From contig CM057135.1 of NCBI GenBank assembly GCA_029964075.1, positions 21,912,863 to 21,976,862 of the forward strand: 64,000 bases of DNA, written 5' to 3'. The translations under genes and the position numbers were made by a program. This document shows, in pieces, positions 5,338 through 29,379 of the stretch. Under the pieces are notes generated by a model. That model made no database searches, was not told the origin of the DNA, and worked only from the letters and a program-made list of their open reading frames with translations. How positions within the stretch are numbered: the stretch's first letter is position 1; each line of letters opens with the position of its first letter. Origin of the DNA: Patiria pectinifera (taxonomy: Eukaryota > Echinodermata > Asteroidea > Valvatida > Asterinidae).

Positions 5338-5520
5338 ACGTATCAAAAGTCCGACGCTTTATAAGTCCGACGACGGAAAAACGAGGCATTTAATTTGTTG
5401 GACCTACAAAGGTGTCGGAGCTATGGAGCGTCAGAGCTACGAGGCGTCGGACCTTTGAGGCGTCGGAACTTTGAGGCGTCGGACTTACGAGGCGTCGGAC
5501 CTATGAGGCGATGTTGTCAA
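5338..5520 (+). repeat. Minisatellite of 16-bp units (GAGGCGTCGGACCTAT type)
   Basis: A leader with CGTATCAAAAGTCCGACG and GACGGAAAAACGAGGC is followed by about seven units ending GAGGCGTCGGA with a variable middle (CCTTT, ACTTT, CTTAC, CCTAT). A second copy, inverted, lies at 49378-49600 with the same leader. The shared leader shows both came from one dispersed element rather than from independent slippage. Confidence 0.8.
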
Positions 5521-7915: not shown

Positions 7916-8081
7916 GATCACGTCGTCTACACCCAATTGAGGAAACCTGACCCTCAGCATTTGCCCCGCTGATACACTACTAGGATTGTGGGTAATGACC
8001 ACCTGTTTTCTCTCACCCGTGATAGATCTGGGAACTTTTTATTAAATAGCCTGCTGGGATTCAGCTTTTTTCCATACGCAT
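7916..8081 (-). pseudogene. Capsid-like gene, N-terminal fragment
   Basis: This corresponds to the first 50 or so codons of the gene at 20885-22344. The start codon is at 8081. Relative to the longer copy it has several substitutions and small insertions (for example near 8040), so the frame is not intact. The rest of the gene is absent. Confidence 0.6.
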
Positions 8082-8107
8082 TTATTTTATTTATACGAGT
8101 TTTAAAT

Positions 8108-8471
8108 TTAAAGGTATCTGTAAGCCAAGAAGCCCACCAATAGCGTTCCTCCGGCTCCCGCGATAAACGCGAGTTCTCTTTATATTTGTTGGTCGCTAGG
8201 CTCGTAAAAATCTTCGAGTTTGGGTTCGCGTTGCAGTCCTACGGGTAGTTCGGTGGACTGTACACTCACCTCGTTGTAGTAACGCAACGCTCGGTCTACG
8301 TTGGAAAATGTCTCTTTAGAAGCATTTTGTTTTCTGATACGTTCGTTGAGAAAATCTAGATATTTCGTTCGTTCTCGTTGCCACTTATCTTTGGCGGCTG
8401 AGAGTTGTTCTATCGCTAAATCGTGTCTCTTACGCTCCTCGTCGCTCTACCATCATAGCAGCGCTAGCCAT
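8108..8471 (-). pseudogene. Small Polinton-like membrane protein, decayed copy
   Basis: This is the counterpart of 22371-22771: the same start (ATG at 8471) and the same end block, with a deletion removing most of the N-terminal hydrophobic segment between about 8445 and 8460. It cannot make the full protein. Confidence 0.6.
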
Positions 8472-8494
8472 ATTATTATAAACGTTTTTTTTAT

Positions 8495-8696
8495 ATTAAA
8501 TTATATCTTAAAAATAAAACCTTATCTAAGCTGTATAATAGCCCAAGCGGTTATTGGAGAGGGAAAAGCGCCGTCGACCATTTACACGAAAAAAACAAAA
8601 CCGATAAAAAAGTAATCAGAGAGTGGCTTAAAAAAACAAGCGATCTGGCAAATTTATCTACCGGGTCCTGCGTACGTACCCAGGCCTACGAGTACT
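8495..8696 (+). pseudogene. Polinton-type integrase, N-terminal fragment
   Basis: It matches the first 60 codons of the integrase at 22803. The original ATG is changed, and a small insertion near 8655 shifts the frame before the conserved GPAYVPRPTSTS segment. At about 8696 it joins the Tc1/mariner transposase; over the last dozen codons the two reading frames are in phase. Confidence 0.65.
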
Positions 8697-9501
8697 TCAT
8701 GTACCCCAGACGTCCTCGACATCATAGATCAGAGTTTGAGAGAAAACAGCGAACTGAATGCAGACGAGCTGCAAGACCTTATCAGGAATGCAACAGGAAA
8801 GTTCATCTCCATTTCCGCCATCAAACGTGCTCGGAAGGGACTGGGATGGGAAAGGTCAGGAACTCGCTATTGTCAATTAATTTGGCACGCAAATCGACCA
8901 AAGCGACTCGAATTTGCGGAAGCCTGCCTGGCAAGGAACGACAACTTCGACGACGTCATTTGGAGCGACGAATGCTCTGTAGAAATGCAAAAGGTACACC
9001 AAGTGGTCCTTCAGGACTCTTAGAGGGAAACCAAAGCACCCCTTTAAAGTGCACGTGTGGGGTGCGATTTCAAAGGAAGGGGCATGTGAGGCGACGATTT
9101 TCACAGGTAAAGTGGACGGAGAGTTCTATGCGACGGAAATTATCCGAAATACTCTACAACCCTTTATCCATCGTGTATTCCCACACAATCATCGCTTCCA
9201 ACAGGATAATGATCCTAAGCATACTGGCAGAAGAACACAACAAGGGATGGACAACTTGGGAATAAACTGGTGGAAAACTCCAGCAGAAAGTCCAAATATG
9301 AATCCCATTGAAAATCTGTGGGCGGAGTTAAAACACTATTTGAGAAAGACAGTAAAGCCAGCCACAAAAGACCAGTTGGTTGATGGCATAAACACCTTCT
9401 GGGCGACGGTGACGCCGGACAAATGTCAACGATACATCGGACATCTGAGAAGAGTGCTTCCAAAGGTTGTGGAAAGACTTGGGCAAGCCTCCGGTTTCTA
9501 G
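8697..9501 (+). pseudogene. Tc1/mariner transposase, DD34E, frameshifted
   Basis: A cut-and-paste transposase. The N-terminal part has a helix-turn-helix-like region (ELNADELQDLI... SISAIKRARK). The catalytic residues are all visible: Asp in VIWSDEC, Asp in FQQDNDPKHT, and Glu in SPNMNPIENLW, with 34 residues between the last two, as in classic Tc1 elements. A frame change near 8990-9010 separates the first catalytic Asp from the rest. The first DNA-binding helices are missing because the copy starts at the junction with the Polinton fragment. I could not find terminal inverted repeats, so this copy is probably dead. Confidence 0.88.
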
Positions 9502-9700: not shown

Positions 9701-10506
9701 ACCATAGAGCAAGGACCCAAGGAGTCAGAACTCTTGGGCGATTTACATTTTGACCATTAACATACCAATCCCTCGGGAATGTCTATAGCTAAAGCACTGT
9801 AACCGCAAGCCTCGACCATTCAAAGCGTGAATGCCAGCGGCCTTTGAACACGATGATCATCGCCGCCTTTTTAGTTGGTAACCAACAACCTCCCTATATG
9901 CTGCATAATAAGTCATGTAACGTCGCTACTCTTTTTTGAAAAATATATTTTACGACCAGATACGTGTTTACAACTGTTCATTTGTTAGATGTGAGTTATG
10001 AACTGAAGATAGCAATGTGCAGTTGTTGGTGCTTAAAAGCGTTATCTGTCCCTGTAATTTGGATTTATTTCAGATAAGTTTTCATGTATTTTCAGACATT
10101 AAAATTGGCAATATATCATTGATGAAATGTGTTTTTTTTGGAAAATTTCACAAGTTTTCACACTAAAGGTACAGAGCATTTTGTTCTTCATGAAATGATT
10201 GTTTCAGTGATGTTGACCACATTGTTAGCCTGTATTAGCCAACTCCGAACAAACACTTCAAAATCATTCATTTTTAGCGATGTATGACAACTGCGCATGC
10301 GTATTTACCATGGTACTGTCTACGAAGCCATGCGAACTCCTTTTTTTGGCATTAGTGAGCGCGGATCTCTATTGTGTCGAGATTAGCGTAGTGAGCAACT
10401 CAGCAAGGGGGCCCCAGGTGTTTTCTATTGTAGCTTTCGAGCGCGGCGATGATCATTTTACTTTTGAAGTCTTGGAGTACGAACTCCTTGGGTCCTTGCT
10501 CTATGC
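9701..10506. mobile_element. piggyBac-type MITE with TTAA target duplication
   Basis: It is flanked by TTAA at 9697-9700 and 10507-10510. The ends are inverted copies of CATAGAGCAAGGACCCAAGG (left from 9703, right end 10504). The 806-bp body has no transposase frame. TTAA duplication is the hallmark of piggyBac-like elements (also Kolobok), so the call rests on ends and target site. Confidence 0.82.
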
Positions 10507-10515
10507 TTAAACCTC

Positions 10516-10695
10516 CGTTAAGCCCGCTTCATACTCTGCGCCAAAGCGAATGCGAATTTGTGATGTCGTGGCTAGTATTCGCGATGCGAATTCGTAAAAG
10601 TTGAACATCTTTCAACTCGGGCGAATTTCGCAGCGAATGTTTTATGTCGTCAAATTCGCTTCGCATTCGCATGAAGTATGAACCAGGCTTTACGC
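10516..10695. mobile_element. Short palindromic MITE
   Basis: The left arm has AAGCCCGCTTCATACT then GCGAATGCGAATTTG; the right arm has the complement (CAAATTCGCTTCGCATTCGC then GAAGTATGAACCAGGC). The element is about 175 bp and almost entirely fold-back. It sits directly beside the TTAA of the preceding MITE. The target duplication is uncertain. Confidence 0.7.
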
Positions 10696-10822
10696 AAAAT
10701 TAAAAGATACAAGTTTAATGTGTTCGTTATTTTCTGTAATTGCATATAATTACATCGTATCAGAAATGTATTGCAAAACCAGAACTATACTATACGATCA
10801 TTATATCGAAATGTTAAAGTCA

Positions 10823-11615
10823 AGAAATTAACAGCTTTATCGTTTTAAGTGCACCCACATAGCTTTCACTGAAACCTGCATTAAGGAGTACAAACAGTCA
10901 CATCGTATCTTAATTTCATTGCAAACGTTGCATTTTATTGAGTGAAGCCTCCATCATTAAATTTCATAAAAATGAGAAAATTCATTATTAAAATGTTTAC
11001 AACTTATTAAAAAATCACAAAATGCTGGTGTCCATGAATGAATGAAAACTTGCCCTTAATAACAATCAATGTTTTAGAAAAAAAAGTAGATTTTTTCCTC
11101 ATATTCCTCATGTTCCAACACAAATCTGTCAGTAAAAATAATATCTCGACACTAATGATTAAAATATTGTGACATGTACTTTAACTGCCTGTGTGTAATC
11201 TGTAATTTTTACTCAGCTGACAGCTGAAGAAATTAACAGCTTTAGCATTTTAAGTGCAACCACATCGAATAGCTTAATTCACAGAAACCTGCATTAAGGA
11301 GTACAAACAGTCACATCGTTCCTTAATTTCCTTAATTGTTTGCACTTTTGAGTGAAGCCTCCAAGCCCCCATCATTTAATTTCATAAAAATGGGAAAATT
11401 CATTATTAAAATGTTTAAAACTTAATAAAAAATCACAAAATGCTGGTGTCCATGAATGAATGGAAACTTGCCCTTAATCACAATCAATGTTTTACAAAAA
11501 AACTTGGCTTTTTCCTCATTTTCCAACACAAAATCTATCAGTAAAAATAATATCTTGACACTTGAAAATTGTTACACTTTTATAGAACTATTAAGAAACT
11601 AATTGAATTTTAACA
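10823..11615 (+). repeat. Tandem duplication of about 400 bp
   Basis: The block starting AAGAAATTAACAGCTTTA near 10823 recurs near 11227. Long near-identical stretches follow, including GCATTAAGGAGTACAAACAG and AAAATGCTGGTGTCCATGAA. It is non-coding. Confidence 0.85.
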
Positions 11616-13010
11616 CTGAAACATTCAACCTATTTTTTTCTATGGCTTAAACATGAGCTTGTCTTCCCTGCCATTTGCATTGTCATCTTCGCTGGCATAT
11701 GGACTGTCATCTTCGCTGCCACTTGCATTGTCATTTGCATTGACAATGCAAATGGCACATTTGCTGTCATTTGCTGTCATCTCCGCTGTCATATTAATTT
11801 TCGTCTCTACTGTCATTTGCACAAAACATGTTACACTTTTGTAGAACGATTAGGAAACAATTAATTTTAACACTGAAACATTCAACCTAATTTTGTTCTC
11901 TGGCTTTAATATGTGCTTGTTGGCGACGACATTTGCATGGTCATCTTCTCTGTCATTTGCATTGTAATCTTCACTGTCATTTGCACACAGAAAAATTACA
12001 CTTTAAAGAACGATTAGGAAACAATTTTAACACTGAAATAATCCACTTAATTTTTGTTCTGGCTCAAACATGACTTTGTTGGCAACGACGTCTACAGAGG
12101 ATCATCATTGCCATCAAGCATAATTGGGACAACTATCCCATCACCCTGGTGTTTATTTGCGTCATTTTCATTGTCATCTGTGATGTCGCTTTCATTGTCA
12201 TCTTCGCTGTCATTTTCATTGTTTTCTTCACTGTCATTTGCACGGGAAATTGTTACACTTTAAAGAACGATTAGGAAACAATTTGTACACTGAGTCATTC
12301 AACTTAATTTTTGCTCTGGCTTAAACATCTGCTTGTTGGCGACGACTTCGACGAAGAATCTCTCGCCCCGCTTTGTCTATGGCCTATTGGCAGTTTCGCC
12401 ACTGATTGTCCTTCAGTGCCTCGGGCACTTGAACAATGCGAAAGAAATTGCTATGCACTTTTTGCAGTGTGTCTGCCTTCAGCTGAGCTCGCACACCTTG
12501 CGCACCACAGCGACTATAAGCCAACTCATCCTAAAGCTCAGCTAAAGGCATTGCACCCACAAACGCATCATCGTGGTTCCCTTCGTCGGCGGCGTCGCCA
12601 AGTACACCTCTGACTTAATTAAATTGTAACCCGGTTGCATCTGCTGTATCATTCCTTCAATAAGGTTTGTTCGATTGTTAAATTCTCTGCGAAAAACCCG
12701 CTGTTCTTCAAGAATTCTACTGGCCAAATCATGAATGCGATTGCCATCAAGCATAATTGGGACAACTTTCCCATCACCCTGGCGCTCAACTGCGTCATTT
12801 GCATTGTCATCTGTGTTGTCGCTTTCATTTTCCTCTTCACTGTCATCTTCGCTGTCATTTGTATTGTCTTCTGTGCTGTCCCCTTCGCTGTCATTTGCAC
12901 TGTCATCTTCATTGTCATTTGCATTGTCATCTTCACTTTCATTTGCACCCCCTCTTTACTGTCATTTGCAATGTCATCTTCACTTTCATTTTCCCCCTGT
13001 CTCTGCCCCC
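11560..13010 (+). repeat. Compound tandem repeat (TGTCATTTGCAT words in about 180-bp units)
   Basis: A unit with GAACGATTAGGAAACAATT, CACTGAAACATTCAACC and a GCTTGTTGGCGACGAC-type end recurs near 11575, 11835, 12005 and 12260. Each is followed by runs of the 12-13 bp word CATTGTCATCTTCGCTGT and variants. Repetitive open frames on both strands (for example 12649-13155) arise from this low complexity and are not genes. Confidence 0.8.
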
Positions 13011-13014
13011 TCCC

Positions 13015-13300
13015 AATGACACCCCCTCCCTTCCCAATGATCCCCCGCCCCCTAATAGATCCTTCTCCCAATATATCTGTCTCCCTCCCCAAATATATCT
13101 CCCCCCTCTAGCTCCCCAAATATATCTCTTCTCTCTCCGAGTTGTTATATTATAAGTGGGGGACAGGTACCAGACTTTACTTCTCCCCAATGATTTCCCG
13201 CTCCCACCCCCACCCCCACCCCTCCCAAAATATATCTCCCCCTCTAGCTCCCAAAATATCTCTCTCTCTCCGAGTTGTTATATTATAAGTGGAGGGTACG
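13015..13300 (+). repeat. CT-rich low-complexity repeat
   Basis: CCCAAATATATCTCCCCCTCTAG and CTCTCCGAGTTGTTATATTATAAGTGG recur twice (near 13090-13160 and 13220-13295) within pyrimidine-rich DNA. No gene. Confidence 0.7.
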
Positions 13301-13425
13301 GCGACAAACCCCATATCTCCCTCTGTCTAGGCACCAGACCAGGCTCTTACTAACTCTTTATTAAAGGGATAGAGAGGTTTTTATGATTGAAAACTTTATT
13401 TAAAAAAATAAATCATTTTTAATAA

Positions 13426-13866
13426 ATGAACCTCGAGCTATCTGATAAAACAAATCAGTGTGATCACCACATAATCATCGAGAATGGTTTTTAGTTTGTG
13501 AAACCTGCGGTGAAATAGTCTCACGTTACTTTGATTTTTCGGCAGAAAATGCGCAAGAAGATCGTATCAATTGGTCAATTTTAAAAAGAAATAAAAGAAA
13601 AACTGTGGAGAAACTTTTTTTTCTTCTGTGTGTCCAGAGCAAGACTCGGAAGATGTCCAAGAAACAATCAATAAATATAACGAGCTCGTTAATTACAAAA
13701 CATTGAGGGGATACGGATGCGTAAAACGGTCGTTAATAGCGGCGTGCTATCATTACGTCGTTGGATTAGACAAAGAACGAGTTAGAGATTAATTTAAAGT
13801 AACTCAAAATCAATTTAATAAGGCACTAAAAAGAAGGTATAACTTGGCGGATCGCTTTCATAATGT
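13426..13866 (+). pseudogene. TFIIB-like transcription factor, frameshifted
   Basis: The ATG at 13426 opens a short zinc-ribbon-like segment: a Cys-x-x-His pair (CDHH), then after a one-base frame change in the T-run near 13488-13492, VCETCGEIVSRYFDF. This is the C-x2-C/H spacing and GxxVCxxCG signature of TFIIB-type zinc ribbons. Further on, in another phase, GYGCVKRSLIAACYHYV followed by a polar helix looks like the cyclin fold of TFIIB (compare the archetypal K-x2-AA-x3-A pattern). A TAA interrupts at 13790-13792. It runs toward the next gene, whose stop is at 13867. In the element it would supply promoter recognition for its own genes. The family call is mine from motifs; the frame is broken. 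Confidence 0.55.
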
Positions 13867-14563
13867 TTATTCACTGAGATTCGAACTTGCAAGTTTTTCG
13901 ATGAGAGATTTTTTTTCTTTTGCCAGCCGTTCGTCTACCCGTTTTTTAACTTCTTTTTCAAAGTCTGTTTCGTTTTTAATTTTTTGAAGCTTTGTGCTGG
14001 TCTTAGTTCTATTTTTTTTGCTTAAGCTCGTTAAATTTTGCGAGCTCTCTCGTAATCAATAAGAACTCTTCGTGCGATATATCTCCGTCGTTGATGGCTT
14101 GAGACACGTATTCTTCAATCGTGTTAAGTTTGGAGTCTGCTAACATTTTAATCTGGTCGTGCTTTTTCAGCTTGGTGGATAATCGCTTAGACGCGATTCT
14201 AAGCAGAATATCTACACCAAAAGCGCTTATAAACGTTCCTTCTAACACCAATCCAACGGGGGCTGATATAACACCCAAGAGAGCGGGAATACTGACAGCC
14301 CCCGCTATAGCCCCCAATCCTTCTAATCCTATCTCTACATAATTAATAGTGTCGATCACTCTCTTTATTTTTTTATAAGTGCGCTCTCGGTGGTCTCTCT
14401 CTTTCAAGATTGAAGATCGAATCTCTTTAATCTTTTTAAGTCTGTACCCTTTTGTTTCTTCGTTTCTATTTAATCGGAGTACATCTCCAGAAATTGTTTC
14501 TTCGTTTCTATTTAATCGGAGTACATCTCCAGAAATGTCGGGGTATAATACATTATTACTCAT
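13867..14563 (-). pseudogene. Conserved Polinton-associated membrane/coiled protein
   Basis: The start is ATG 14563, directly behind the promoter word at 14564-14580. An exact 14-residue repeat (SGDVLRLNRNEETI/K) comes first, from a 42-bp tandem duplication at 14462-14545. A basic helical part and a long hydrophobic stretch (about residues 78-125) with Gly-Ala-rich segments follow, then an acidic helix (YVSQAINDGDISHEEF). The frame stops at 14009, but a one-base change in the A8 run at 14010-14020 would continue it through a lysine/glutamate coiled-coil tail ending at 13867. The function is unknown. Similar proteins are, as far as I recall, common in cnidarian and other invertebrate Polinton-like loci. 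Confidence 0.6.
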
Positions 14564-14580
14564 GTTTTAATATAAAAAGA
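14564..14580 (-). promoter_or_regulatory. Element promoter word TCTTTTTATATTAAAAC
   Basis: It lies immediately upstream of the ATG at 14563. The same 17 bases occur upstream of the oppositely oriented gene at 16233 (16203-16219). Closely similar words precede the integrase and another small gene, so it is likely a core promoter of the element. Confidence 0.6.
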
Positions 14581-14588
14581 TTTTAAAA

Positions 14589-14838
14589 TTAAAAGATCTC
14601 CAACTCTATTATTATACTCACACCCTTGTTGTTGATGATCTGTCCTTTTTCACCTATGATTGAAAATGTCAGTTTGTCGATTATACCGTTTTTAAGTTTT
14701 TTGAAATCCTCGACTCTATCAGGCTCGGGTCCGCGCGTACCCACGGGGACGATTTTCAAGATGTCAGACGGCCGACCATCAAGGAAATTTTCACTCGTAC
14801 TTAATTCGTCACCGTTTTCACGAACAGCCACATACTAT
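14589..14838 (-). CDS. Polinton-like hypothetical protein, C-terminal part
   Basis: An 80-codon open frame ending in a beta-strand-rich segment (KLTFSIIGEKGQIINNKGVSIIIELEIF region). It resembles the end of a capsid or fibre-type jelly-roll protein by pattern only. It is probably the 3' part of a longer gene, since it begins at the edge of the repeat insertion 14839-15425; the sequence at its 5' edge (CGTTTTCACGAA) recurs inverted at the other side of that insertion. The function is unknown. Confidence 0.45.
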
Positions 14839-15425
14839 ATATATTATGTTGATTTTGAAGAAAAGTGTTTTCGAGATAATCGCAAAAGAAGTTTCTCATA
14901 TTTTAAAACTTCAAGAAATACTACTTTGCAACAACTTTGTGCAGCAAGGAAACCATCACACGATTCTACGAGAGCTGAAGTTTTACATGAACCTGGTAAT
15001 CAGACTTAATACAGCAGTTAATTAATAAAAATTAATTAGTAAAGATATGTGGCTCTTCGTGAAAACGCAAATTTAGGTTTTTGGCCTTTTCTGTTCAACG
15101 TGTATTTCTATAGGTGCGCGTGAGTACGCGCGCGCAGCTGAAAATGTAACAAAGATATGTGGCTCTTCGTGAAAACTCAAATCTCATTTGACCTACTTTT
15201 ACGTATTTCCGTGCAATGGGTTTTGTACGCGTTCAAAGGGCCAAAATGTATGTGGCTCTTTGTGAAAACGCAAAATGCATTTATCGAGATTTCTGCCCCT
15301 TGCAACATTAATGTAACTTAGAAATGAATGATGTTTTGCTTATAGAAACATGTCAAAATGGTTAAGTACATTGTTTTAATGCGAAATATTGAAAAAAATC
15401 ATAATCGAAAAAAAGAGTAATTTTT
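14839..15425 (+). repeat. Insertion with GTGGCTCTTCGTGAAAACG repeats
   Basis: The word TGTGGCTCTTCGTGAAAAC recurs near 15050, 15155, 15250 and, extended by GGTGACGAATTG, near 15430, about 100 bp apart. The extended form is also present inverted at the start of the frame 14589-14838. The block interrupts element genes and has no supported frame of its own. A related word (TTCGTGAAAACGGTGACAAC) is found near 45404. Confidence 0.6.
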
Positions 15426-15439
15426 GACATACGTGGCTC

Positions 15440-16191
15440 TTCGTGAAAACGGTGACGAATTGCGGGCAGCGAATAAACAAAAATTTAAACAGATTAACGT
15501 CGTAAGACCTCGTATACACCACTTTGGGTATCAGTCTTCCTTTGGGTAAATTAAGTAATCGACAATCTTCTCTGTTTAAACGCAATTTGAGATTGACGTC
15601 GGTCACCACCAACGTCACCTTTTTAGATTCTCTAAATATTCTAAACTTACCCCGGGTATATAATTTAAAATGAAATCGAACCAATCGACGTCGTACCACC
15701 CAGGTGGGATGGTGACCGAACCGGTGACTCCGGCTAGTAACGGCGCTAAAAGACTCGAGGAAATATTAAAATCTAAAGTATCACCTTTCAATTATTTGTT
15801 CTTTTTCTTTTTCGATCGATTCTAAAGCAGAGTCCGGTCTATCTTCTTCGTATGCTTCTAAAAGATCGTTTATAACTCTATTGAAAGTATTTTCGTCTCT
15901 AATTAAAAAGTCATAGGGTATCGCAGGTATCACCGATTCAATAAAATCTCTATCTGTTCTTAGTTCTCTATCTGAGTCAACCTGTTCGTATCTTCTACCA
16001 TCATCAGGTCTTTCAGCGGGTCTCCCCTCTGTATTCGTATACCAATCAATCTCCGTGGCGCTGGAAATATTAAAATATCCGGGGTTAAACATGACCCTTT
16101 TTACGCGTACAGATTTTTGACCGTTTAAATTATCTACGACGTCTTCTAATTTAAACGTCTGCTCATTTTGAAACGAGTGAAATGAATGCAT
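15440..16191 (-). pseudogene. Polinton-like hypothetical protein, about 240 aa, frameshifted
   Basis: The start is ATG 16191 (MHSFHSFQNEQ). The first 136 codons are open and acidic at the end (EDRPDSALESIEKEKEQ). After a frame change near 15785 the sequence encodes a hydrophobic segment (SSSLLAPLLAGVTGSVTIPP), and after another near 15635 a basic segment rich in Leu/Val. The arrangement of a soluble head, then a Gly/Pro-rich hydrophobic part, could suit a minor capsid or penton-like protein, but I do not recognise the family. It is divergent from the gene starting at 16233; the two starts lie within 45 bp, so they share a promoter region. Confidence 0.5.
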
Positions 16192-16202
16192 TTATTTTAA
16201 AG

Positions 16203-16219
16203 TCTTTTTATATTAAAAC
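16203..16219 (+). promoter_or_regulatory. Element promoter word TCTTTTTATATTAAAAC
   Basis: It is identical over 17 bases to the word at 14564-14580 and ends 13 bases before the chosen ATG at 16233. It lies in the short interval between two divergent genes. Confidence 0.6.
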
Positions 16220-16232
16220 TGAAACTAAAATA

Positions 16233-17682
16233 ATGACTGATTTCAAGTCGTTAAAAAAGCAGATACAAAGTATAGCCGATCAGGTAACGCATCAAGTAAA
16301 TCAAAATGTAGCCAAGGCAAACGAGCTAAAGCATAAATTTGCATCTCAAGCAAAGTTTTTAAACAGCACTAAACCCAGTGAACTGGAAGTTATAGTTAAT
16401 AATACCAACGGGTTTTTAACCTTGTTCCCCGACTTAACCTCAGACTATAAATTGCCTCGCATCACAACGGACGAGGATGTAGATCGTTGGAAATCACACC
16501 CCATGTCGTTTTATCAAAATCAGTTAAATTGTGCGATCTACTGCGCTACTACAGGCTGCAGTGTTGGATTCGATCTTTTAAACGCGAGCCACCATTACGT
16601 TTGGGCCATGTTTAACTTTCATTTATATTTTACGGTTAGAAAGATGCTGTACGACTTTGCCGCTCCTTTACCGGGAGATGACGCATTTAAAGCTCTAGAC
16701 AACAGTTATAATCTCAGAGCTTCTACGGATACCTGTTTGTTGTTTGGCATAGATCACAACAAGTCTTTTAAACAGACGAGAGACACAAACTCTAACGGTT
16801 TAGGTATAGCTTATTACTGGGACACGTCTTACGTACCCGTACCCGGAAACGATTATGATACAACCGACCTTAATCTCGAGTATAGTCAGTATCGTAAAAA
16901 TATGATGGGTGGAACTAAAATGGGGTTTGGTTTGGAAGATCCGCCCAAGGGTTCGGGGCGTTACAGCGATTACACCGTAGCCTTTATCGAACAAAATAAA
17001 TCGGTACAAAAGGCTTGGTTAGATTTTATACCCAACACGAGTTCGTTTACCCCCGCGGGAATCATAAAGATCAACGAATCGATCAGATCTTACGTGTACG
17101 CTTTACTCGGTGCGCAGGCTCAAACAAAAAACGAGCGTATTATCACCGGGCACCGGATTAGACGCTCAGAGACAATTTAACGTCATCGTTGAAGATATCA
17201 TCAATGCAGTAGACGACATGGAAACGAGTATCAATCAATTTCAAGACTCTTTGCAGTATGCCAGAACGCCTTTAAATTTTGTCGTGAAACCGGGGTTGTA
17301 TTTAATTCCATCGGATATAAACTTGATGTTTGGAACGCACGACGGCTATAACGACAATCTTCAAATCGCTACCCAGATTATGAAAACTGGTTTGGTTCCA
17401 GATTTAAACTCACAACCTCAACCGGACGACTCTTTTGATGAAACTGATTACGTCGCGCCACCAACACCCCCAGAGCCTATGACGAACGATGTTGTATCAC
17501 CAACACCAGCACCTACACCCTCACCAACACCAGCACCAGCACCCTCACCTACAGTTTTAACCCAAGAGCCCACTAAATTACAAACTCACCAAGACGAAAA
17601 ATTATCGTTGACGGTAGGAATGTTGGCTATCGTTGGTATGGGTATTTTGACTTACGAGGCAACGCGAAAAGTCACACTCTAA
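16233..17682 (+). pseudogene. Large conserved Polinton-like protein, possible structural protein
   Basis: The start was chosen at 16233 because the promoter word is just upstream; an in-frame ATG at 16182 overlaps the divergent gene. The first segment has an N-terminal helix (KKQIQSIADQV) and an aromatic block (MSFYQNQLNCAIYCATTGC... FHLYFTVRKML). A frame change at the A6 run 17126-17131 splits it from the second segment, which has a helical part, a Pro/Thr/Ala linker (PAPTPSPTPAPAPSPT) and a C-terminal hydrophobic helix (LSLTVGMLAIVGMGILTYEA), likely membrane-anchoring. Total about 483 codons. I recall similar proteins in cnidarian Polinton-like loci, without a known function. Confidence 0.6.
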
Positions 17683-17693
17683 TCACAACACAC

Positions 17694-17738
17694 AAAAAAT
17701 AAGCCTTACCAACTTTGTGCTGGTAAGGCTTATTTTTT
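17694..17738. terminator. Perfect 18-bp hairpin between convergent genes
   Basis: The left arm AAAAAATAAGCCTTACCA (17694-17711) and right arm TGGTAAGGCTTATTTTTT (17721-17738) are exact reverse complements around a 9-base loop. It sits 12 bp after the stop of the plus-strand gene and 12 bp before the stop of the minus-strand gene, so it can serve both. The form matches bidirectional terminators and the hairpin polyadenylation signals described for mimivirus. The role here is inferred. Confidence 0.65.
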
Positions 17739-17749
17739 TTAAAAACCTA

Positions 17750-18523
17750 CTACCATCGTTTTTGTAGGTACGCAAACACCAAGGCTCCCACACCCAAAAA
17801 CAAAGCCCATACGTGCTCGGCCAACCACGATACAGACTTACTCAGCGCGTTAAATATCCAACTGAGTACGCTAGCTATGATACCCGGCAGAGCACCCAAC
17901 GCGCTCACTCCGAGTTTTTTAAGAGCAGATGCAAAATTAGCGAGTTGTTTTGAAATCCACTCTTTGATACCGCCTTTTGGTGGTGTTGGTGTAGGTGTTG
18001 GCGATGGTGTGGTTGGGGCACCCACACCTCTCACGCTAGCGACGATGCTACTCACTATCGTGCTGATGGCTAAACTGAAAGCGGCTAAAATACTCACTAT
18101 GGTCACACCTTGTTCTCTAAACAGAGTTCTAATCTTTTCTGCCAGAGTCGTGTCGCCGCCTAATATTTTATTAATCGTTTCTTTTATTCTAGCGATCTGA
18201 CTTTTGAGCCCTAGTTCGCTGGCTTTTGCGGCTTCTAATCTGGCAGATCTTTCAACGTTCAAGTCGCTCAATTTATCGTTTAACTCTCGTCGACCCTCTT
18301 TGCTGTAAGATTCGTCGAGTTCTTGTCTCGTGGCTGCAATCTCTCGGTCGAATTCAGTGAGACGCGCTAAATTAAGTTCTAGGTTACCTCTCAACGTCTG
18401 AAGACTTTTATCTAAACCCCGGAGTTCTCTGTAATTCAATCCTTCTGTTTGAGCGCCGGTGTCGCGTTGTAAATCGTCTATAATCTCGATTACCTCATCG
18501 GTGACTCTGGGTAGTTCTGTCAT
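17750..18523 (-). CDS. Coiled-coil, two-membrane-segment Polinton-like protein
   Basis: Intact, 257 residues. Residues 1-115 are a long charged helical region (coiled coil) with regular Leu and Glu/Arg spacing. They are followed by KILGGDTTLAEKIRTLF and a hydrophobic segment (VTIVSILAAFSLAISTIVSSI). A Pro/Thr linker (TTPSPTPTPTPPKGG) leads to an amphipathic part and a final hydrophobic segment ending AYLQKRW. This layout is characteristic of a protein I recall from Polinton/adintovirus-like loci of invertebrates, of unknown function, possibly a virion membrane or fibre-anchoring protein. One of the few undamaged frames in the element. It is convergent with the gene at 16233. Confidence 0.65.
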   Translation of the reverse strand: MTELPRVTDEVIEIIDDLQRDTGAQTEGLNYRELRGLDKSLQTLRGNLELNLARLTEFDREIAATRQELDESYSKEGRRELNDKLSDLNVERSARLEAAKASELGLKSQIARIKETINKILGGDTTLAEKIRTLFREQGVTIVSILAAFSLAISTIVSSIVASVRGVGAPTTPSPTPTPTPPKGGIKEWISKQLANFASALKKLGVSALGALPGIIASVLSWIFNALSKSVSWLAEHVWALFLGVGALVFAYLQKRW

Positions 18524-18949
18524 GGGGATACTCTCGGTATCGATAGCAGTTGTTGACTTTGATCGTCACAGAGTGTCTTACGTTCATAATGCGTAAAACC
18601 TAATTTGTGTCTAATACAATCTCTACCGTTTAAACCTATCTTTCTTACATTTAACTCTATAGTCCTCATAAAATAAACCGTCTTTTTTGAGAATAAATTT
18701 TTCGAATCTCGGAGATATTGGTTTTTCGTATATGTTATAAGTATCGTAAAACTCATCAACGCGCCCATTAGTGACCATGCTTCTTCCTTGATATAAAACC
18801 TCATCTATGTCGGTAGTTGGGATGGGTGTATCAGGGGTATCAAAAGTATTGTCCCAATCCAGATTGGTTTCTTCTACATCATCATCATCTAAGTTAATGT
18901 CAGGTGGATCTTCGTATACGGTGACATGGTCAAAACCTCCTTCAGCCAT
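18520..18949 (-). pseudogene. Acidic Polinton-like protein, frameshifted
   Basis: The ATG at 18949 is preceded by ATTAAATAA, giving the TAAATG start context seen at other genes here. The N-terminal half is strikingly acidic (PDINLDDDDVEETNLDWDN). It continues to a basic stretch, where a frame change near 18630-18665 carries it into a Cys/His-containing tail (GRDCIRHKLGFTHYE) ending at 18520. It overlaps the start of the next gene by four bases. The function is unknown. Confidence 0.5.
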
Positions 18950-18971
18950 TTATTTAATACTCCTATTTAAA

Positions 18972-19214
18972 TTATGCCGTTTTCATTATACTGCCCGGTA
19001 GTATACCCTGGGTCACCAACCTATTTTGTGTGGCCAGAGCTCCACTTATAATACCCGTCAACTTACCCATATCTTCTACGCTTAGTTTGTCTAAATCCGG
19101 CGCTTTCATTTTGAGTAGTTTATTTCCTACCATGGCGTATCCCATCGAAAGACCCGATATGACGGCTCCGTGGTAAATCGTATTAGCTATTCCGTTGGTG
19201 TCAAAGTTACTCAT
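18972..19214 (-). CDS. Small 80-aa Polinton-like protein
   Basis: Intact. The sequence has a Gly/Ala-rich, moderately hydrophobic helix (TIYHGAVISGLSMGYAMVG) and a second helix (GKLTGIISGALATQNRLV). Small size, two hydrophobic helices and position among structural genes suggest a minor virion membrane protein. A promoter-like word (TTATATTAAAAAC) is directly upstream of the ATG. I recall similar short proteins from other Polinton-like loci; the function is unknown. Confidence 0.55.
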   Translation of the reverse strand: MSNFDTNGIANTIYHGAVISGLSMGYAMVGNKLLKMKAPDLDKLSVEDMGKLTGIISGALATQNRLVTQGILPGSIMKTA

Positions 19215-19230
19215 CGTTTTTAATATAACA
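19215..19230 (-). promoter_or_regulatory. Element promoter word TTATATTAAAAAC
   Basis: It directly precedes the ATG at 19214. It shares the TTATATTAAA core with the words upstream of 14563, 16233 and 22803. Confidence 0.5.
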
Positions 19231-19247
19231 ATTTTTAAATTGCTGGT

Positions 19248-19631
19248 TTATTCCATGTCTAGCGTTTTTGGGGCGCTGGGTGTAGTGGGTTGCGTGACTA
19301 CCGGCACTGGCTGTACTACCGGCGCAGTTGCCTTACTGTTTAGTACCAGCAACCCCACTCCTATTATCGACGCTATAGCCCCCCACATCGCCCAAGAGCT
19401 GTAGTCTGGTGGGCTCGTAGCGTCGTCCGATGTTACGTCCATTTTTGCTAATTTTAATTTCATCTGTCTATTGTGCTCGGCTAAAGCTTTACCCTGCTGT
19501 ATTCGTTTAGGATTTTTAGACTTGGTCACTCTCGTTACCGTCGGTGATGACGTTGTTTTTATCGGTTGGGGCGTCTCTGTCTCTGATGGTTGAGCGGCAG
19601 GCGTTGCTGTTGCTGCTTTCTGATCTTCCAT
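19248..19631 (-). CDS. Small membrane-anchored Polinton-like protein, 127 aa
   Basis: Intact. The Ala/Thr/Pro-rich low-complexity head (KAATATPAAQPSETETPQP) is followed by a conserved-looking basic segment (KSKNPKRIQQGKALAEHNRQ) and a C-terminal transmembrane helix (WAMWGAIASIIGVGLLVL). The tail is again Pro/Val/Thr-rich. The ATG has the TAAATG context (AATAAATGG). The function is unknown; a single-pass virion protein is plausible. Confidence 0.55.
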   Translation of the reverse strand: MEDQKAATATPAAQPSETETPQPIKTTSSPTVTRVTKSKNPKRIQQGKALAEHNRQMKLKLAKMDVTSDDATSPPDYSSWAMWGAIASIIGVGLLVLNSKATAPVVQPVPVVTQPTTPSAPKTLDME

Positions 19632-20094
19632 TTATTATATTAGGTTTATTAAATTTCAAATGTTTTGTTGTGAAAATCGTAGCAACTAGGGGTAATATTA
19701 AAGTTCCGTAATTGTAACAAACGTCGCTCAACATACCAGCCATACTCGCGCATATAATAGGATCAGAACTCAAGTCGTTGGTGAGTTCTTCTTCAGAATC
19801 TATAGTGATGTTATATCCTAAAACTTGTACGGGTGTAACAACGGCTAACACTCTCGAAAATAGACTTAAAGTGTATTTACCAATGGTTTTAACAATTTCA
19901 ATTCCAAATTTAGTTTCATACAGATGATACAGCTTTTCGAGTTCTTTACTGTCAAGAGCTTCGATATGTTTAACGGTGTATTCCTTTCCCAAGTACTTTC
20001 TAGAGTTTCCGGCTGCTACGACACCTCACAACCGATCTTTATGTTCTGCGTTGTGATCTTGTTCGTTCGTTAAAGTAAGTTTTAGGTCCTCCAT
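19516..20094 (-). pseudogene. Polinton-like hypothetical protein, one in-frame stop
   Basis: The start ATG 20094 lies in AATTAAATGG context. After 22 codons an in-frame TGA at 20026-20028 interrupts, then the frame stays open. The middle part is helical, with a segment that could be membrane-associated (YTLSLFSRVLAVVTPVQVLG) and another hydrophobic end (YGTLILPLVATIFT). The last 35 codons overlap the start of the next gene and may be read-through after a lost stop near 19640. No family recognised. Confidence 0.5.
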
Positions 20095-20178
20095 TTAATT
20101 AGAAACGAATTTAATTTTGTTGTAGCTTTTGCAACTTTGTTACAAAAGCAAAGGTATTCCTAGGTGTAAAACGATAGA

Positions 20179-20845
20179 TTAAGCGATATGATAATAATAG
20201 CCAAAAACTGCAAATACTCGAATATTGCTATCATTTATTAACATAAATAGCTCGTAACTAACTGGAGGTCCGGTGGATACGACCAATTTACTATATTTCA
20301 CATCTCTCAAACGTCGTTTTATATAATCTCGTTCTTCAATCGGTACGACGTCATTTTCGTCTAACGCTTGATCAAACGATGTTTTATCTTTGCAGTAAAA
20401 TAACGCCAACCAAGCTGTGTTTTCTCTATAACCTTTTAAAACGCTGTTGTACTTTTGAGTCAATAACCAGCAGTTGTGATTTATGTGTCTTCCGCTAAAC
20501 GCCATCTTGCTTAAAGCGCACGTCTTTTTACGATATTTAATCTCTTGATCTGAAGAGCAATTGTCCAAGATAAACAGCGTAGCAACACCTTCGAATATTT
20601 TCCTGTAAAAACCGATCGCTTCGTTGAGCGTCATCTTGTACAATTCCGGATCGCAGAGATATACCTCGGGATCTGCGTGAATCCATTTTCTTTCGATGTA
20701 CGTTTTGTTTTTAAATAAGGTAGGGCAAATGATGATTATCGCTTCAAATTTATTTTTATAGTCCGACTCTAACAGATCTAAAATCCATTTGGTTTTTACC
20801 CGAATTTGTTTTGCCGAAGATTAAAGCGCAATGCGGTTGTGCCAT
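20179..20845 (-). pseudogene. FtsK/HerA-type packaging ATPase, one frameshift
   Basis: A genome-packaging ATPase of the A32/FtsK-HerA class, expected in Polintons. The start was chosen at 20845, where a short head leads straight into the Walker A motif GKTNSGK. A one-base change in the T5 run 20793-20797 (A5 on the coding strand) shifts the frame just after it. The remaining frame holds the Walker B pattern VATLFILDN and a downstream SGRHINHNCWLLTQ segment matching the sensor region of these ATPases. Length about 220 codons, normal for the family. The frame break makes this copy inactive as sequenced. Confidence 0.8.
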
Positions 20846-20884
20846 TTTAACTTGACAGAGATTTAAAATTTCCGTCTTCCAAGT

Positions 20885-22344
20885 TCAATTAAGCATCCAT
20901 GACCAAAAATACGTACATCGTGAGGTCACCTTGTCGTTACTTCTAAAATCGAGCCACAGACCGTACTTGTTTTTTAGATAGTCTCCGAGGTCAAAACCCC
21001 GTCAAATTTAAGTCTTTAGCTACTCCGCGCCCGCTTTCGGTATCGCTGTCTCCAAAGAACTTGTTAATTTCGTTCCAGTGTTGATACTGAAACATACCTT
21101 GACTGTACAGTTGATTGTGTTTACCTTCTACAGTCACCGATGTTTTGTTTAGTTTTGGATTATAAAATCGCTGCGGATTTTTCTCCGTGGGATCTTTAAT
21201 CAAAAACAAAATACCCTTGAGACTTTTGATGGGTTGATTGACGCTGACGTTCCAAAGCGTGTCCGATTTGTTGACGGATCTAACTTCTATAGCCAGTGGA
21301 TTTTATACACTGTAAAAATGGTGCTTAGGATTTAAACACATTTCTAAACACTTATTCTGTACCCACTTTTTCCACACGTTTAGCATCATGACATGTTTAG
21401 ATGTCCTTTTTCTGTGACACGCATTATCCGTTTGATATGTTCAATGAATAATATGTTCAGCATTTAAACACCTTCCTAAGCGCATTTAAAAATACATTCC
21501 TAAGCACATGTCCAAAACGTAAACACATTTAGTCTCAAAACATTAAAAAGTGGTAAACGTTTAGAATTGAAGCACATTCCCAAACGTTTCTAAAAATGAC
21601 GTTTCTGATATGTTTAAATACTAAACACTGTTTTTACAGTGCAGATATTGCATTAACCCCTTGTGTTTATTTCTTATGGTGATAGCTAGGTCTCTGTTGG
21701 TCACCACTTCGTATTCGAGAGACAAGTCTAAGATAGAATACATCGCCGCCGTATCTGAACTGTTGACTACTTCATCGTGATCGTTAAACTTCATCTCGTA
21801 TGTCAGAGGTTGTTTAAAACCGCTGGGGTAAAAAGGGTGATGCGAAGTCAGTATGTCAATGTCTAGGGGAATACAATATATGTGCTTGATCTTTACCGTT
21901 GTTGGCGCCCGCGTTAGCATCTTGAGCCCCCGTTTTTAGTTTAGACACGTTTTCTTTTTCTATGCCCGAGTACGCCATGTTTCGAGTCGTCGAGCTATTG
22001 ATCCAATTGTCTTTAAAGTTGTGATACACGTCGGCGTGACGATAACTTTCGATTTCGTGACCTTGAAGTCTGACGCTGATTTCGCTGACTAAATTTCTGG
22101 CTAAATTACCAAAAGTGGTTCTATTGTTGTCACCTCCACCTTCGAGTTCTAAATTGAAAGCTAGTTTACAAGTGCCGGGTACGATCACGTCGTCTACGCC
22201 CAATTGAGGAAACTTTACCCTCAGCATTTGCCCCGCCGATATACTACTAGGATTGTGGGTAATGACCACCTCTTTTCTCTCACCCTTGATAGATCTGGGT
22301 ATTTTTAATAGCCTGCTGGGATTGAGCTTTTTTTCCATACGCAT
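20885..22344 (-). pseudogene. Probable major capsid protein, split by a MITE
   Basis: A likely double-jelly-roll capsid protein. The N-terminal frame (22344 to about 21880) begins with a basic head and then beta-strand-rich sequence (DDVIVPGTCKLAFNLEL, NLARNLVSEISVRLQGHEI). A frame change near 21880-21910 leads to a second part (YEMKFNDHDEVV), which is cut by the MITE at 21308-21641. The tail resumes at 21300 and, after another change near 20993, ends at 20885. About 375 codons excluding the insertion, rather short for this family, so some sequence may be lost. The call rests on strand pattern and position next to the ATPase. Confidence 0.55.
21308..21641. mobile_element. MITE inserted in the capsid-like gene
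   Basis: It begins CACTGTAAAAATGG and ends TGTTTTTACAGTG, an inverted pair, with internal TTTAAACAC and CTAAACAC words as in the MITE at 4695-4917. A TA dinucleotide precedes the left end but is not matched on the right. The flanking capsid frame breaks exactly at its edges, which shows it arrived after the Polinton-like element. Confidence 0.75.
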
Positions 22345-22370
22345 TCGTTTTATTTATACGAGTTTTAAAT

Positions 22371-22771
22371 TTAAAGGTATCTGTAAGTCAAGAAGCCCAC
22401 CAATAGCGTTCTTCCCGCGATAAACGCCAGTTCTCTTTCTATTTGTTGGTCGCTAGGCTCGTAAAAATCTTCGAGTTTGGGTTTGCGTTGCAGTCCTACG
22501 GGTAGTTCGGTAGATTGTCCACTCACCTCGTTGTAGTAACGCAACGTTCGGTCTACGTTGGAAAAAAATTCTTTAGCGGCATTTTGTTTTCTGATACGTT
22601 CGTTCTCGTTGCCACTTATCTTTGGCGGCTGAGAGTTGTTCTATCGCTAAATCGTGTCTTACGCTCCTCGTCGGCATCACTCTGTTTCAGATTTGAAAAG
22701 AAAAAAATTGAACCCGTAAAAGCTAAGGCGTTGACGATCGCGCCTCCTAACATCATAGCAACGCCAGACAT
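22371..22771 (-). pseudogene. Small Polinton-like membrane protein
   Basis: The start is ATG 22771 (MSGVAMMLGG); an upstream in-frame ATG at 22801 lies within the integrase promoter and is less likely. The hydrophobic N-terminus (AMMLGGAIVNALAFTGSIFFF) is followed by a charged helical part and, after frame changes between about 22600 and 22660, an aspartate/tyrosine-containing segment and a second hydrophobic helix (ELAFIAGRTLLVGFLTY) ending at 22371. I recall this arrangement from other Polinton-like loci. It is divergent from the integrase with only 31 bp between starts. A decayed copy lies at 8108-8471. Confidence 0.55.
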
Positions 22772-22784
22772 ATTATTATAAACG

Positions 22785-22799
22785 TCTTTTATATTAAAC
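22785..22799 (+). promoter_or_regulatory. Promoter word TCTTTTATATTAAAC before the integrase
   Basis: It ends 3 bases before the integrase ATG. It differs from the 17-mer at 16203 by one T and one A. The second element copy keeps the same spot (about 8486-8500). Confidence 0.55.
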
Positions 22800-22802
22800 A
22801 AT

Positions 22803-23718
22803 ATGCAAACATGGTCTAAACTGTATTATAGCCCAAACGGTTATTGGAGAGGTGAAAGTGCCGTCGACCATTTAAACGATAAAACAAAAATCGATAAAAA
22901 GGTAATCAGAGATTGGCTTAAAAAAAAAGCGATTTGGCAAAAACCGGGTCCTGCGTATGTACCCAGGCCTACGAGTACATCGCGAGAGTTTGAAACACCA
23001 AACGACTTTCACCAAATGGATGTGCTATACCTAACCTGGGATAAAGTAAAACGCAAGACTTATAAATACGCTTTGACGGTTGTCGACGTTGCGAGTCGAT
23101 ACCACGAAGCAGAACCTTTGGTTTCTAAAACGGCGGATTCCACCCAAGATGCTATCGTCAAGATTTACTTGGTACTTGGTTGGTTTCCTCCTGAAACATC
23201 CGCTAGGGATCTTGACTAGGAGGTCAAGATCGCCTTTGAGTTACCCCAAAACGTTGAGAGTAGACGCCGGTACCGAATTTAAAGGCGCTTTTAAAAAATG
23301 GATGGCCTCAAAAAACGTCGATATTATCGTAGGCGAACCCGGAAACCACCGATTGCAAGGTATCGTAGATAGATTTAATCGAACGCTAGCCGACAGACTG
23401 TTTGGTCATCAGTACGCTCAAGAAATGTTAAATCCTGAGAGTAGAGAAACACGCAATGGGTCGAGCGATTACCAAGCGTGATCAAACCCCATTAAAACAA
23501 AAGAGCAACAATTACCGCAAGACGCTATGGTTAGATATTTATATTACCCGAGCGAGCAAGAGGGTGGAACCTCGAGAAGAGCCACGGATCCCATTTGGGG
23601 CGTAGACATCTTCAACGTGGAAAAAAGAACGAGTCAATTTAAAATGATTAACGGTAAAAAGTCACGACGGGTCCTACTCTTTATTAACTTCAAAACGGCC
23701 CAAAAAGGAGTTTTGTGA
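22803..23718 (+). pseudogene. Polinton-type (retroviral-fold) integrase, frameshifted
   Basis: It would integrate the element into host DNA. The first segment has a short N-terminal helical region (AVDHLNDKTKIDKKVIRDWL) and the first catalytic Asp in NDFHQMDVLYL. A small palindromic disruption near 23208-23231 shifts the frame. The second segment holds the second Asp in LRVDAGTEFKG and then QGIVDRFNRTLADR, where the third acidic position, Glu in relatives, is Asp in this copy. A stop near 23479 and a further shift separate the C-terminal domain (VRYLYYPSEQEGG... TDPIWGVDIFNV), which ends at 23718. It is convergent with the polymerase gene, 10 bp apart. Confidence 0.85.
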
Positions 23719-23728
23719 GACAAGAGCT

Positions 23729-26363
23729 TCAAGTGGTACCCGAGGACACGCAATTACCGCCGTAGTGGCCAAAAGCCAGCGTGTTTATACCGTCCGATAA
23801 AATGTACCTCTTTGTGTCCAACGGACTCAACGAAAGTTTATTTTGAAATACGGTGTAAAGGATTTGGTTTTCCGATCTAATGTGAGTCATGGTTTCGTAT
23901 TGAGATTTCTTGTTTAAGATGCAGTCGTAGTAGTGTCGGTGTTTTGATTTCTTAGAGGTGACCGATTTTGTGTCTCCCTTGGTTTTTTCAGGTTGATGTC
24001 AGAGGTTAAAATCGAGTACATTTTAGGCCTTTTACAAACGAATTCTTTGATTATTTTACCTCCAAACTCGTCTTTAAATTTACCGATCACTTTCTTATTG
24101 GTTGGATCGTACAAAGATGATCCGTCGGATAATTCGAAAGGTCGTATTGTTGCCCGTTTTGCTGCATATCTTTGTATACGTCGTCCGTGTGCACTACGAG
24201 TACCAAACTGTCTGTATCTGTGTACATCAACCTGATTTTCTCTTTGTACTTGTCTTTCAAATGGTTGTAATAAAAGTCATACATTAGCGTCTTAGATAGA
24301 TCCAAGATACTCACTCCGTAATAGATCGGTTTGTTTAACACGGTTTTAGTCTTGTACTTTTCGACAAATGACAATTTGCATTCTGAAAATGACGTCGTCG
24401 TTTTGTAGCTCGGTTTCTGTATAATTTTTTTGGTATTTACCTCGATCGCCATCGTTACTGTCTCTAAGTAGATAACCGTCAATCCTGTTTCTGACGTTTT
24501 CCATCGTCTTACCAAACACGCTGTTATTCATGAGCTTAAAAAAGTCTTTCTCAAATCAGAGGTCGCTTTTGTTCTGAGTTGCGTGTTTTTTTTCGATGTA
24601 AGATGCCATCCAAGGCGCTTGTTTAAATTGCAGCACTCGATGCACCTTTTTAAGTTTCAAGCCGAGTTTGAGATACAACTGTAACGTGACGTAGTGCAAA
24701 ACATATTTTTGCTTAGGATTAAGGGTTACACGTTAATTTTTGCACGTTGCTACTAGGTTCGGTATCCAATAACTCGTTTTGATAATCAGACATCCATTCT
24801 TTTGGTATGACGATATTTTCTGGCGCTAGGGGGTAATCGTTGTGCAGGTCGTGGAGATTGTCTGGGTAATCGAGGTCTACTTCAAAGCAGTAACCGGTGT
24901 TTGCCATTTTCCTGAGAGATAATATCTTGAACTCGGTAAACGTTTTTGTAGACGTCCATTTAAAGTCTTAGTACGGCAGGTATTGACTCATGGCCCAGCC
25001 GTACAGATTGTTTGCATCGAGGTAGGTGATGTAACTCGATGGCTCGTTTGGATTATGGTCAGGTAGACATTTGTTGTTGGCTTAGTGGTATCTCATACCA
25101 CCCACGCTCGAGATACCACCTCTTTTTGCCTTTTCCAAAAATAAATGTTTGTCTACGTCTTGCAATAGTTCGAGTTTAACTTCCGAGTGTTTTAACAAGG
25201 CATCCCACGACAATCCTTGTCCTGTGTAGTAATTAGCCTGATCTAACGCGTAGTTTGTAATACACGTTTGCCTAAAGTTTTCAAATACGCAAGCCAGTAA
25301 TAACGTATCGGTAGTGACGTACAAATCGTGATATTCCCCCATGTTTTTAACTTTAAACTCGTTCCACGTCAGTTTCGCTCTGTCGTAGTCTTCTCGCGAT
25401 ATATTTTCGTCTTTTAGGCTGCTGTAAAACTGTTCGATGGGGGTAGACTGGTCTCTTGAAATCTGTCAAACGAGTCCATGTATTCATACGGATAAACTCC
25501 TTTTTGTAACAACGAGTCGATGTTTTGACGATTAAAATGTTATCTGAGTAGTTTAAACGACTTTTTCGGACAAGCTTTAGATAATCTATCCAACGAAGAT
25601 GCCATGAAATTAAACGAGTCTTTAAATCGCATATTTCCGATCGAAAACGAAATATACTTTGTGAAAACGAAATATACTTTTCAGAATTTCTAGCGCTAAC
25701 TTGTATTTCCTTTTCGTCATCGTACTCTGAAATACTCTGCATGATCAAGTGAGCGTCGTATTTTTGCAGATTGTGAAAGACGACCGGTATGGGGGTAAAA
25801 CCTGGTTTAACTCGTAATTTTAGATTGCAGTAGGCGTGCGCAGCACCTCTATATCTACCCGTGACGTGGCAGTGATCTCTCACCTTTCTAAAATTGTTGA
25901 TTTTCTTTTTGCATTCGAGACATTTATACTCAATAAATCCATTTTTGTTTTCGTACTGATGTTCTTTTATTTGTTTTTCTGTTTTTGTTTTTTTGGGTTT
26001 CTGGCACTGACAGTTGCTCGATTAATTGGGATAAATCGGTTTCTCGCAAATCCAACACGTGTTTGATTTATCATGATGTTCTTTAGCTCGCTCTTTAAAT
26101 TTCATGGGTTTGGGTTTTTTTAAATATGCAATTTATGTCGCTTTGTATTTTTAACATTTTATTTACAAACTTTGATGCGGCATGTTTACCTCTATAAGCC
26201 TCTTGATACACATTGGTGCCGTCGCATCCAACTACTACCAACGAGTAACCGCTAGCTTTGTGAATGTTTGTCTTTTGCGTGTTGTCATTTTTATCGTCCG
26301 AGTTTTTTTCTAATATCGATTCAAAGTCGGCGTAAACTACAAACGGTGCTTTTTGTTTAAACC
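23729..26363 (-). pseudogene. Protein-primed DNA polymerase B (pPolB), fragmented
   Basis: The replicative polymerase of the element. Motifs appear in the right order: Exo I (YADFESIL) near 26325; a Cys/His region (CWICEKPI, HCHVTGRYRGAAH) near 26070-25870; Exo II (VVFHNLQKYDAH) near 25770; Exo III region (YHDLYVTTDTLLL) near 25320; LHDLHNDYPLAPE near 24840; the helix with NNSVFGKTMEN near 24520; motif C YTDTDSLV near 24215; and the end RYILSDGINTLAFGHY near 23790. At least six frame changes or stops lie between. The N-terminus upstream of Exo I is cut by the repeat at 26364. A tandem duplication of 21 bp lies near 25640-25680. Confidence 0.88.
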
Positions 26364-28121: not shown

Positions 28122-28309
28122 GATGTCGGACGCATCTATCAGTCAATCATCCAGATCATTGCAGGAATGGTCGCCAGTCAGCCAGGGCTGAAAATAAAAA
28201 CAACACAGTTTGTTTTTGTCAAAAAATGTTATTACTGGGACATTGGAAGACCATTTCGCTGACTAAAATTACCTATAATAGGTCTAACCTGCATGTCAAT
28301 TACTTGAGC

Positions 28310-29337: not shown

Positions 29338-29379
29338 AGCAGCCATCTTGTCTTGCTTCTTTCCTACATACCTGTGTCT

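Follow-up and report, generated by a model that had tools for sequence, protein, structure and literature searches.

Does an animal Polinton carry a part of the transcription initiation machinery of its own? The question is raised by a locus in a 64,000-nucleotide stretch of the Patiria pectinifera genome (contig CM057135.1; the whole stretch is hereafter the window), where an earlier note, made from the letters alone, had placed a TFIIB-like gene at the left edge of a Polinton/adintovirus-like element. The signatures behind that claim, CDHH, VCETCGEIV and GYGCVKRSLIAACYHYV, are all present where they had been placed, one in each of three pieces that occupy three frames of the plus strand between 13426 and 13834, with the start ATG of the gene at 13426 and a single in-frame stop (13790-13792) in the third piece. 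An intact relative, P0001, is a continuous protein of 158 amino acids that contains counterparts of all three. Mapped onto the window, P0001 runs collinearly through frames +1, +3 and +2 with identities of 74%, 64% and 82.5% and E values of 5e-25 to 7e-40; the remaining five of its eight match rows have E values of at least 1.0, and its first seven and last 21 residues have no counterpart in the window. Because P0001 matches all three pieces in order, they are, on this alignment, one gene that is broken here, as had been proposed. P0001 is also the sole relative of the third piece among 5.8 billion proteins (91% identity across 75% of the piece), and as a query it retrieved, from 11 candidates, no protein but itself at E <= 10.

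The intact product would be a protein of about 150 residues with a zinc ribbon of TFIIB type at its N-terminus; a short linker, some 20 residues long, would lead from there to a single helical domain resembling a cyclin repeat and ending about where TFIIB repeat I ends. This architecture is part of our best explanation as a whole, which we hold tentatively and which falls somewhat short of probable. Of its parts, the ribbon is likely to be of TFIIB type, judging from sequence comparison. The P0001 ligands C13, H16, C26 and C29 (C-x2-H ... C-x2-C), all four of which are kept in the window pieces, reproduce the ligand pattern of human TFIIB. Alignment of P0001 with a 15-sequence TFIIB/TFB alignment by hhalign scored 31.1, over the ribbon, and none of 200 shuffles preserving cysteine and histidine (C/H) scored as high; ten proteins of the family of the converging neighbour gene, used as a control, scored 10.3-20.2. 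A ribbon hidden Markov model (HMM), built like those for repeats I and II from 79 human and archaeal sequences, was satisfied as well by none of 1000 C/H-preserving shuffles and by one of 335 archaeal decoy open reading frames (ORFs). Aligned locally to human TFIIB, the ribbon scored 41, which 62 of 5000 C/H-preserving shuffles reached, and ribbon and repeat I taken jointly were equalled in four of 5000.

A cyclin fold of the helical half is possible on sequence grounds, where the methods disagree. Its Smith-Waterman score against human repeat I was 39, with 80 of 5000 shuffles as high. The repeat-I HMM was matched as well by two of 1000 shuffles and one of 335 decoys, the repeat-II HMM by 281 of 1000 and 153 of 335, and the HMM scores thus prefer cyclin repeat I over II. 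Repeat II is absent from P0001, the end of the protein roughly coinciding with the end of repeat I. We call the gene TFIIB-like and do not assign it to the TFIIB family, because repeat II was tested and found absent. With a full-length TFB HMM, P0001 scored 4.7 bits, more than all 777 scored shuffles (of 1000 made). The TFIIB likeness asserted by the earlier note is thus upheld for the zinc ribbon by purpose-built TFB/TFIIB profiles, whereas its cyclin-like half came out weakly.

In the single-sequence AlphaFold model of P0001, helices come after two strands, and five of these helices fall within residues 57-143. A Foldseek search with this model (E <= 10) listed 50 of 348 matches in the PDB, among which 11 chains of RNA polymerase II initiation or TFIIB complexes were taken as TFIIB (seven in entries annotated for TFIIB, four judged by chain and title), and 50 of 305 matches among viral structures, with six named TFIIBs. 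A control model of the neighbour's product (mean predicted local distance difference test, pLDDT, 63.4; from 10 of 11 sequences) had no TFIIB row among the 50 matches listed, the neighbour being a long-helix protein and so an imperfect structural control.

Our best explanation, one that these results make attractive without yet making it probable, is that the Polinton/adintovirus-like element encoded a minimal initiation factor akin to TFIIB, made up of the ribbon and a single cyclin-like fold, which would use host RNA polymerase II for the element's genes. The ribbon would dock on the host polymerase, as in TFIIB; the single cyclin-like domain would touch promoter DNA or TBP; and the host enzyme would then transcribe the element genes from AT-rich start regions that the element itself provides. 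Such an initiation factor would have to act on host RNA polymerase II, because we know of no RNA polymerase in Polintons. We infer the cyclin identity, the contacts with polymerase and TBP, and the promoter role; the term "promoter-recognition factor" in the earlier note likewise derives from the resemblance to TFIIB.

Several results weigh against such a factor. By hhalign, two of 200 unrelated decoy ORFs equalled the score of P0001, and the helical half alone was not significant, being equalled by 86 of 300 shuffles and by 74 of 200 decoys. With the full-length TFB HMM, two of the 237 scored decoys (of 336) equalled or beat P0001; one more decoy in that test scored 400.9 bits and is apparently a TFB copy, and a stricter filter left the 335 decoys used for the ribbon and repeat HMMs. 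Pfam gave no TFIIB match for the three pieces or P0001 at E <= 10, and NCBIfam, a bacterial/archaeal library, gave no match for P0001 at E <= 1, so that the profile search proposed earlier supports TFIIB with the purpose-built ribbon profiles but not with these curated libraries. The P0001 model itself is poor (pLDDT 46.6; predicted template modelling score, pTM, 0.44). Its structure matches to TFIIB never reached significance (best E 0.58 and 0.51) and were outranked by TraR (E 0.18) and an unnamed viral protein (E 0.13), while DnaA C-terminal domains, with 10 of the 50 viral matches listed, outnumbered TFIIB with six. VIA-align showed no preference for TFIIB.

The decoy scores, the non-significant helical half in hhalign, the lack of a curated family match and the DnaA rows would all suit a small element protein without homology to TFIIB, with a zinc ribbon and a helical DNA-binding part, acting as a regulator or as a virion or DNA-packaging protein and resembling TFIIB since many ribbons look alike. 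We take this as a serious contender, if one we would not bet on: the ribbon and the helical half point alike to the TFIIB family, their order is the expected one and the resemblance of the helical half is confined to repeat I, and among the matches listed TFIIB turned up in each of the two structure libraries but not with the control. Two pieces against PHROGs, and the pieces and P0001 against Pfam, gave nothing or sub-threshold unrelated matches; a solved-structure sequence search with piece three and P0001 gave no TFIIB match; and phage records gave no match. Viral contigs, scanned with piece three, P0001, the neighbour and the ATPase and endonuclease VII-like pieces, yielded no relative, nor did a degenerate motif match there exactly; these scans reach close relatives only and are weak on absence, because a human/archaeal TFIIB alignment used as the query also matched nothing.

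Set beside eukaryotic TFIIB and archaeal TFB, P0001 shares the C-x2-H ... C-x2-C ribbon of human TFIIB, followed in the same order by helices that best match repeat I. It differs in its single repeat (two there), in the nine residues that separate its ligand pairs (15 there), in a much shorter linker (about 20 residues, against about 60 in human TFIIB) and in matching no curated profile. The missing repeat II and the loss of most of the linker could also mark a TFIIB mimic that serves as a decoy, its ribbon filling the polymerase dock and blocking host initiation instead of launching transcription of the element. This we consider improbable: the matching passages of PMC7865254 describe AtBRP3, a TFIIB-like plant protein composed of a ribbon, a linker and just one cyclin fold, and a missing repeat alone is then no sign of a decoy. 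The same passages have the TFIIB ribbon docking on the polymerase and the cyclin fold contacting TBP or promoter DNA. AtBRP3 is a plant nuclear gene, and we liken P0001 to it by description, not by sequence.

Least of all do we favor a host pseudogene or chance frames beside the element. The pieces do lie at the element's left edge, next to CT-rich and GTCATC-type repeats and with no terminal inverted repeat to fix the boundary, but this reading is very hard to reconcile with a collinear intact relative (E down to 7e-40), with a best relative of the neighbour, P0002, on a contig of the same size as that of P0001, and with a best local score of P0001 to human TFIIB of only 44 when animal TFIIB is highly conserved. 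The broken TFIIB-like gene very probably belongs to the element.

A minimal TFIIB-like initiation factor would not be without viral parallels. Giant viruses (nucleocytoplasmic large DNA viruses) encode TFIIBs, six of them named among the structure matches listed, with the difference that those six measure 236-428 residues. One giant virus pairs TFIIB with TBP, probably to steer host RNA polymerase II, according to the passages seen of PMC12085832. The herpesvirus late factor UL87/vPIC and poxvirus VITF-3 are, like the proposed factor, viral proteins that bring polymerase to viral promoters; they are different proteins, and the analogy is one of mechanism only. In the relevant passages, UL87 binds TATT and host RNA polymerase II (PMC8360532) and VITF-3 is an unusual TBP/TFIIB pair (PMC12917281). 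Closer to the element, some adintoviruses have Ziftr genes for putative zinc-containing transcriptional regulators; the passages of PMC11071296 that describe them call them remotely CTCF/zinc-finger-like, not TFIIB, and it is by this description that we set them apart.

TFIIB as a Polinton or adintovirus gene was not reported in the literature searched, which comprised titles, abstract openings and matching passages and did not extend to supplementary files; this holds for those parts of PMC11071296, PMC10328495, PMC11464507, PMC11244446, PMC12085832, PMC11003980, PMC12638062, PMC10598087, PMC8547959, PMC6401483, PMC6746690, while PMC11071308 and PMC8097293 contained none of the terms looked for. 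This falls short of showing absence. In seven of the eight papers found to name both TFIIB and Polintons, the matching passages place TFIIB in giant viruses, not in Polintons, and in one such passage TFIIB serves as a giant-virus marker gene (PMC12638062). If the proposed factor is real, part of the initiation machinery was encoded by some Polintons, a point of interest for how element genes are expressed in the nucleus and for the history of TFIIB in viruses. An element that lacks a polymerase would then supply its own initiation factor, a small-virus counterpart of the giant-virus TFIIB genes, and the small size of this factor would test how little of TFIIB suffices to work with RNA polymerase II.

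The gene converges on its neighbour, whose stop codon lies at 13867-13869 on the minus strand, at the position named in the earlier note (Table 1). P0002, the best relative of the neighbour (87% identity, 218 residues), and P0001 are each encoded on a single contig of 5175 bases, and because of this shared size the two probably stand together in a second copy of the element. The intact copy beside the same neighbour that had been sought is thus in hand as far as P0001 goes, with its adjacency to P0002 resting on contig size. The neighbour has nine further relatives, P0003-P0011, on contigs that measure between 505 and 10805 bases (six below 2.3 kb, three of 6.7-10.8 kb). The TFIIB-like gene may be absent from some elements of the group, since the P0001 search matched only itself while the neighbour has these nine further relatives, or the P0003-P0011 contigs may stop short of the gene. 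Within the neighbour gene there is a perfect 42-bp tandem duplication (14452-14535), and the residues that it adds are present in none of the nine relatives of the neighbour alignment.

Table 1. Features of the TFIIB-like locus and the surrounding element (positions in the window)
Feature	Position	Strand	Evidence
First frame piece: start codon, C-x2-H ribbon half (CDHH), then stop	13426..13494	+	P0001 residues 8-23 at 13435-13491
Second frame piece: C-x2-C ribbon half (VCETCGEIV) and linker	13488..13694	+	P0001 residues 23-89
Third frame piece: cyclin-repeat-like helices, contains GYGCVKRSLIAACYHYV	13595..13834	+	P0001 residues 58-137, 82.5% identity, E 7e-40
Converging neighbour gene, helical protein, split in two frames	13867..14566	-	P0002 matches 14566-14015 and 14025-13879
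AT-rich TATA-like stretch directly upstream of the neighbour gene start	14564..14595	-	
Probable packaging ATPase remnant	20179..20820	-	Pfam Pox_A32 E 0.002, 18.1 bits, below cut-off 22.8; PHROG terminase large subunit E 0.0016
Integrase remnant, two frames	22782..23481	+	Pfam rve E 7.1e-5, 23.4 bits, below cut-off 32.6; PHROG transposase E 0.00017; second piece rve_3 E 0.097
Probable family B DNA polymerase remains, with endonuclease VII-like stretch in ORF 25353-26021	23914..26021	-	Endonuclease_7 E 9.5e-5, 22.7 bits against cut-off 23.6; PHROG endonuclease VII E 1.8e-5

The AT-rich 15-mer CTTTTTATATTAAAA, part of the stretch upstream of the neighbour, recurs exactly at 16204-16218 on the plus strand, within 16191-16219, before an ATG at 16233. 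The two starts that it precedes point away from each other, and comparable TATA-like stretches precede several other starts in the element. The motif had been spotted before testing, so all statistics on it, taken against an AT-matched background, are post hoc. A TATA-like stretch lies at most 25 bases upstream of five of 12 first-ATG starts, against 1.5 expected at equal AT content (P 0.005). In a subset of eight starts, the count is five with the strict first ATG (1.5 expected; P 0.005) and six with the second ATG for ORF 16155-17180 (1.7 expected; P 0.001), and with the latter choice TAA stands before the ATG in four of the eight (1.2 expected; P 0.017). The motif is compatible with a private promoter class and is no demonstration of one. 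That this animal Polinton had a private minimal promoter system, in which a one-repeat TFIIB directs host RNA polymerase II to AT-rich, TATA-like stretches right beside the start codons, seems to us unlikely.

The sub-threshold matches to ATPase/terminase, integrase/transposase and endonuclease VII at about 20-26 kb fit a Polinton/adintovirus-like element whose genes, as far as their sequences tell, are fragmented; the gene set looked for in one element comprised a packaging ATPase, an rve integrase and a protein-primed family B polymerase. The transposon and retroelement content would suggest an animal host. Three ORFs at 23914-25465 had no Pfam or PHROG match and no polymerase profile match, and the polymerase reading has as its sole basis a DTDS motif seen by eye in ORF 24087-24527, which we take to be a family B DNA polymerase signature. 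Three further ORFs in 20991-22353, looked at for a double jelly-roll major capsid protein, also had no Pfam or PHROG match. No pair of terminal inverted repeats of at least 20 nt spans the element in 10500-30500, and none of at least 40 nt was found in the window. The copy seen here is decayed and perhaps truncated.

The element is represented a second time by a partial copy at 8066-8640, where five blocks, 87-100% identical, correspond to 22329-22926 and lie 14.2-14.3 kb away from it. This copy is followed at about 8616-9501 by what looks to the eye like a Tc1/IS630-type transposase (ORF 8616-9020 had no Pfam match). To the left of the element, 11600-12995 consists of diverged GTCATC/TTCGC repeats with a 12-bp step. 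On its other side, a long and nearly perfect 18-bp minisatellite at 28300-28950 is open in several frames, and an open frame of 730 residues at 32800-34992 has sub-threshold Pfam matches to DUF1280 (E 7.5e-5) and RAG1 (E 0.0017) and a zinc-knuckle-like end (E 0.034). Farther out, inverted GTCGGA/GAGGCG minisatellite arms lie 44 kb apart, at 5361-5510 and 49383-49586, and a Gypsy-type retroelement with broken frames was recognized by eye at 52346-57321.
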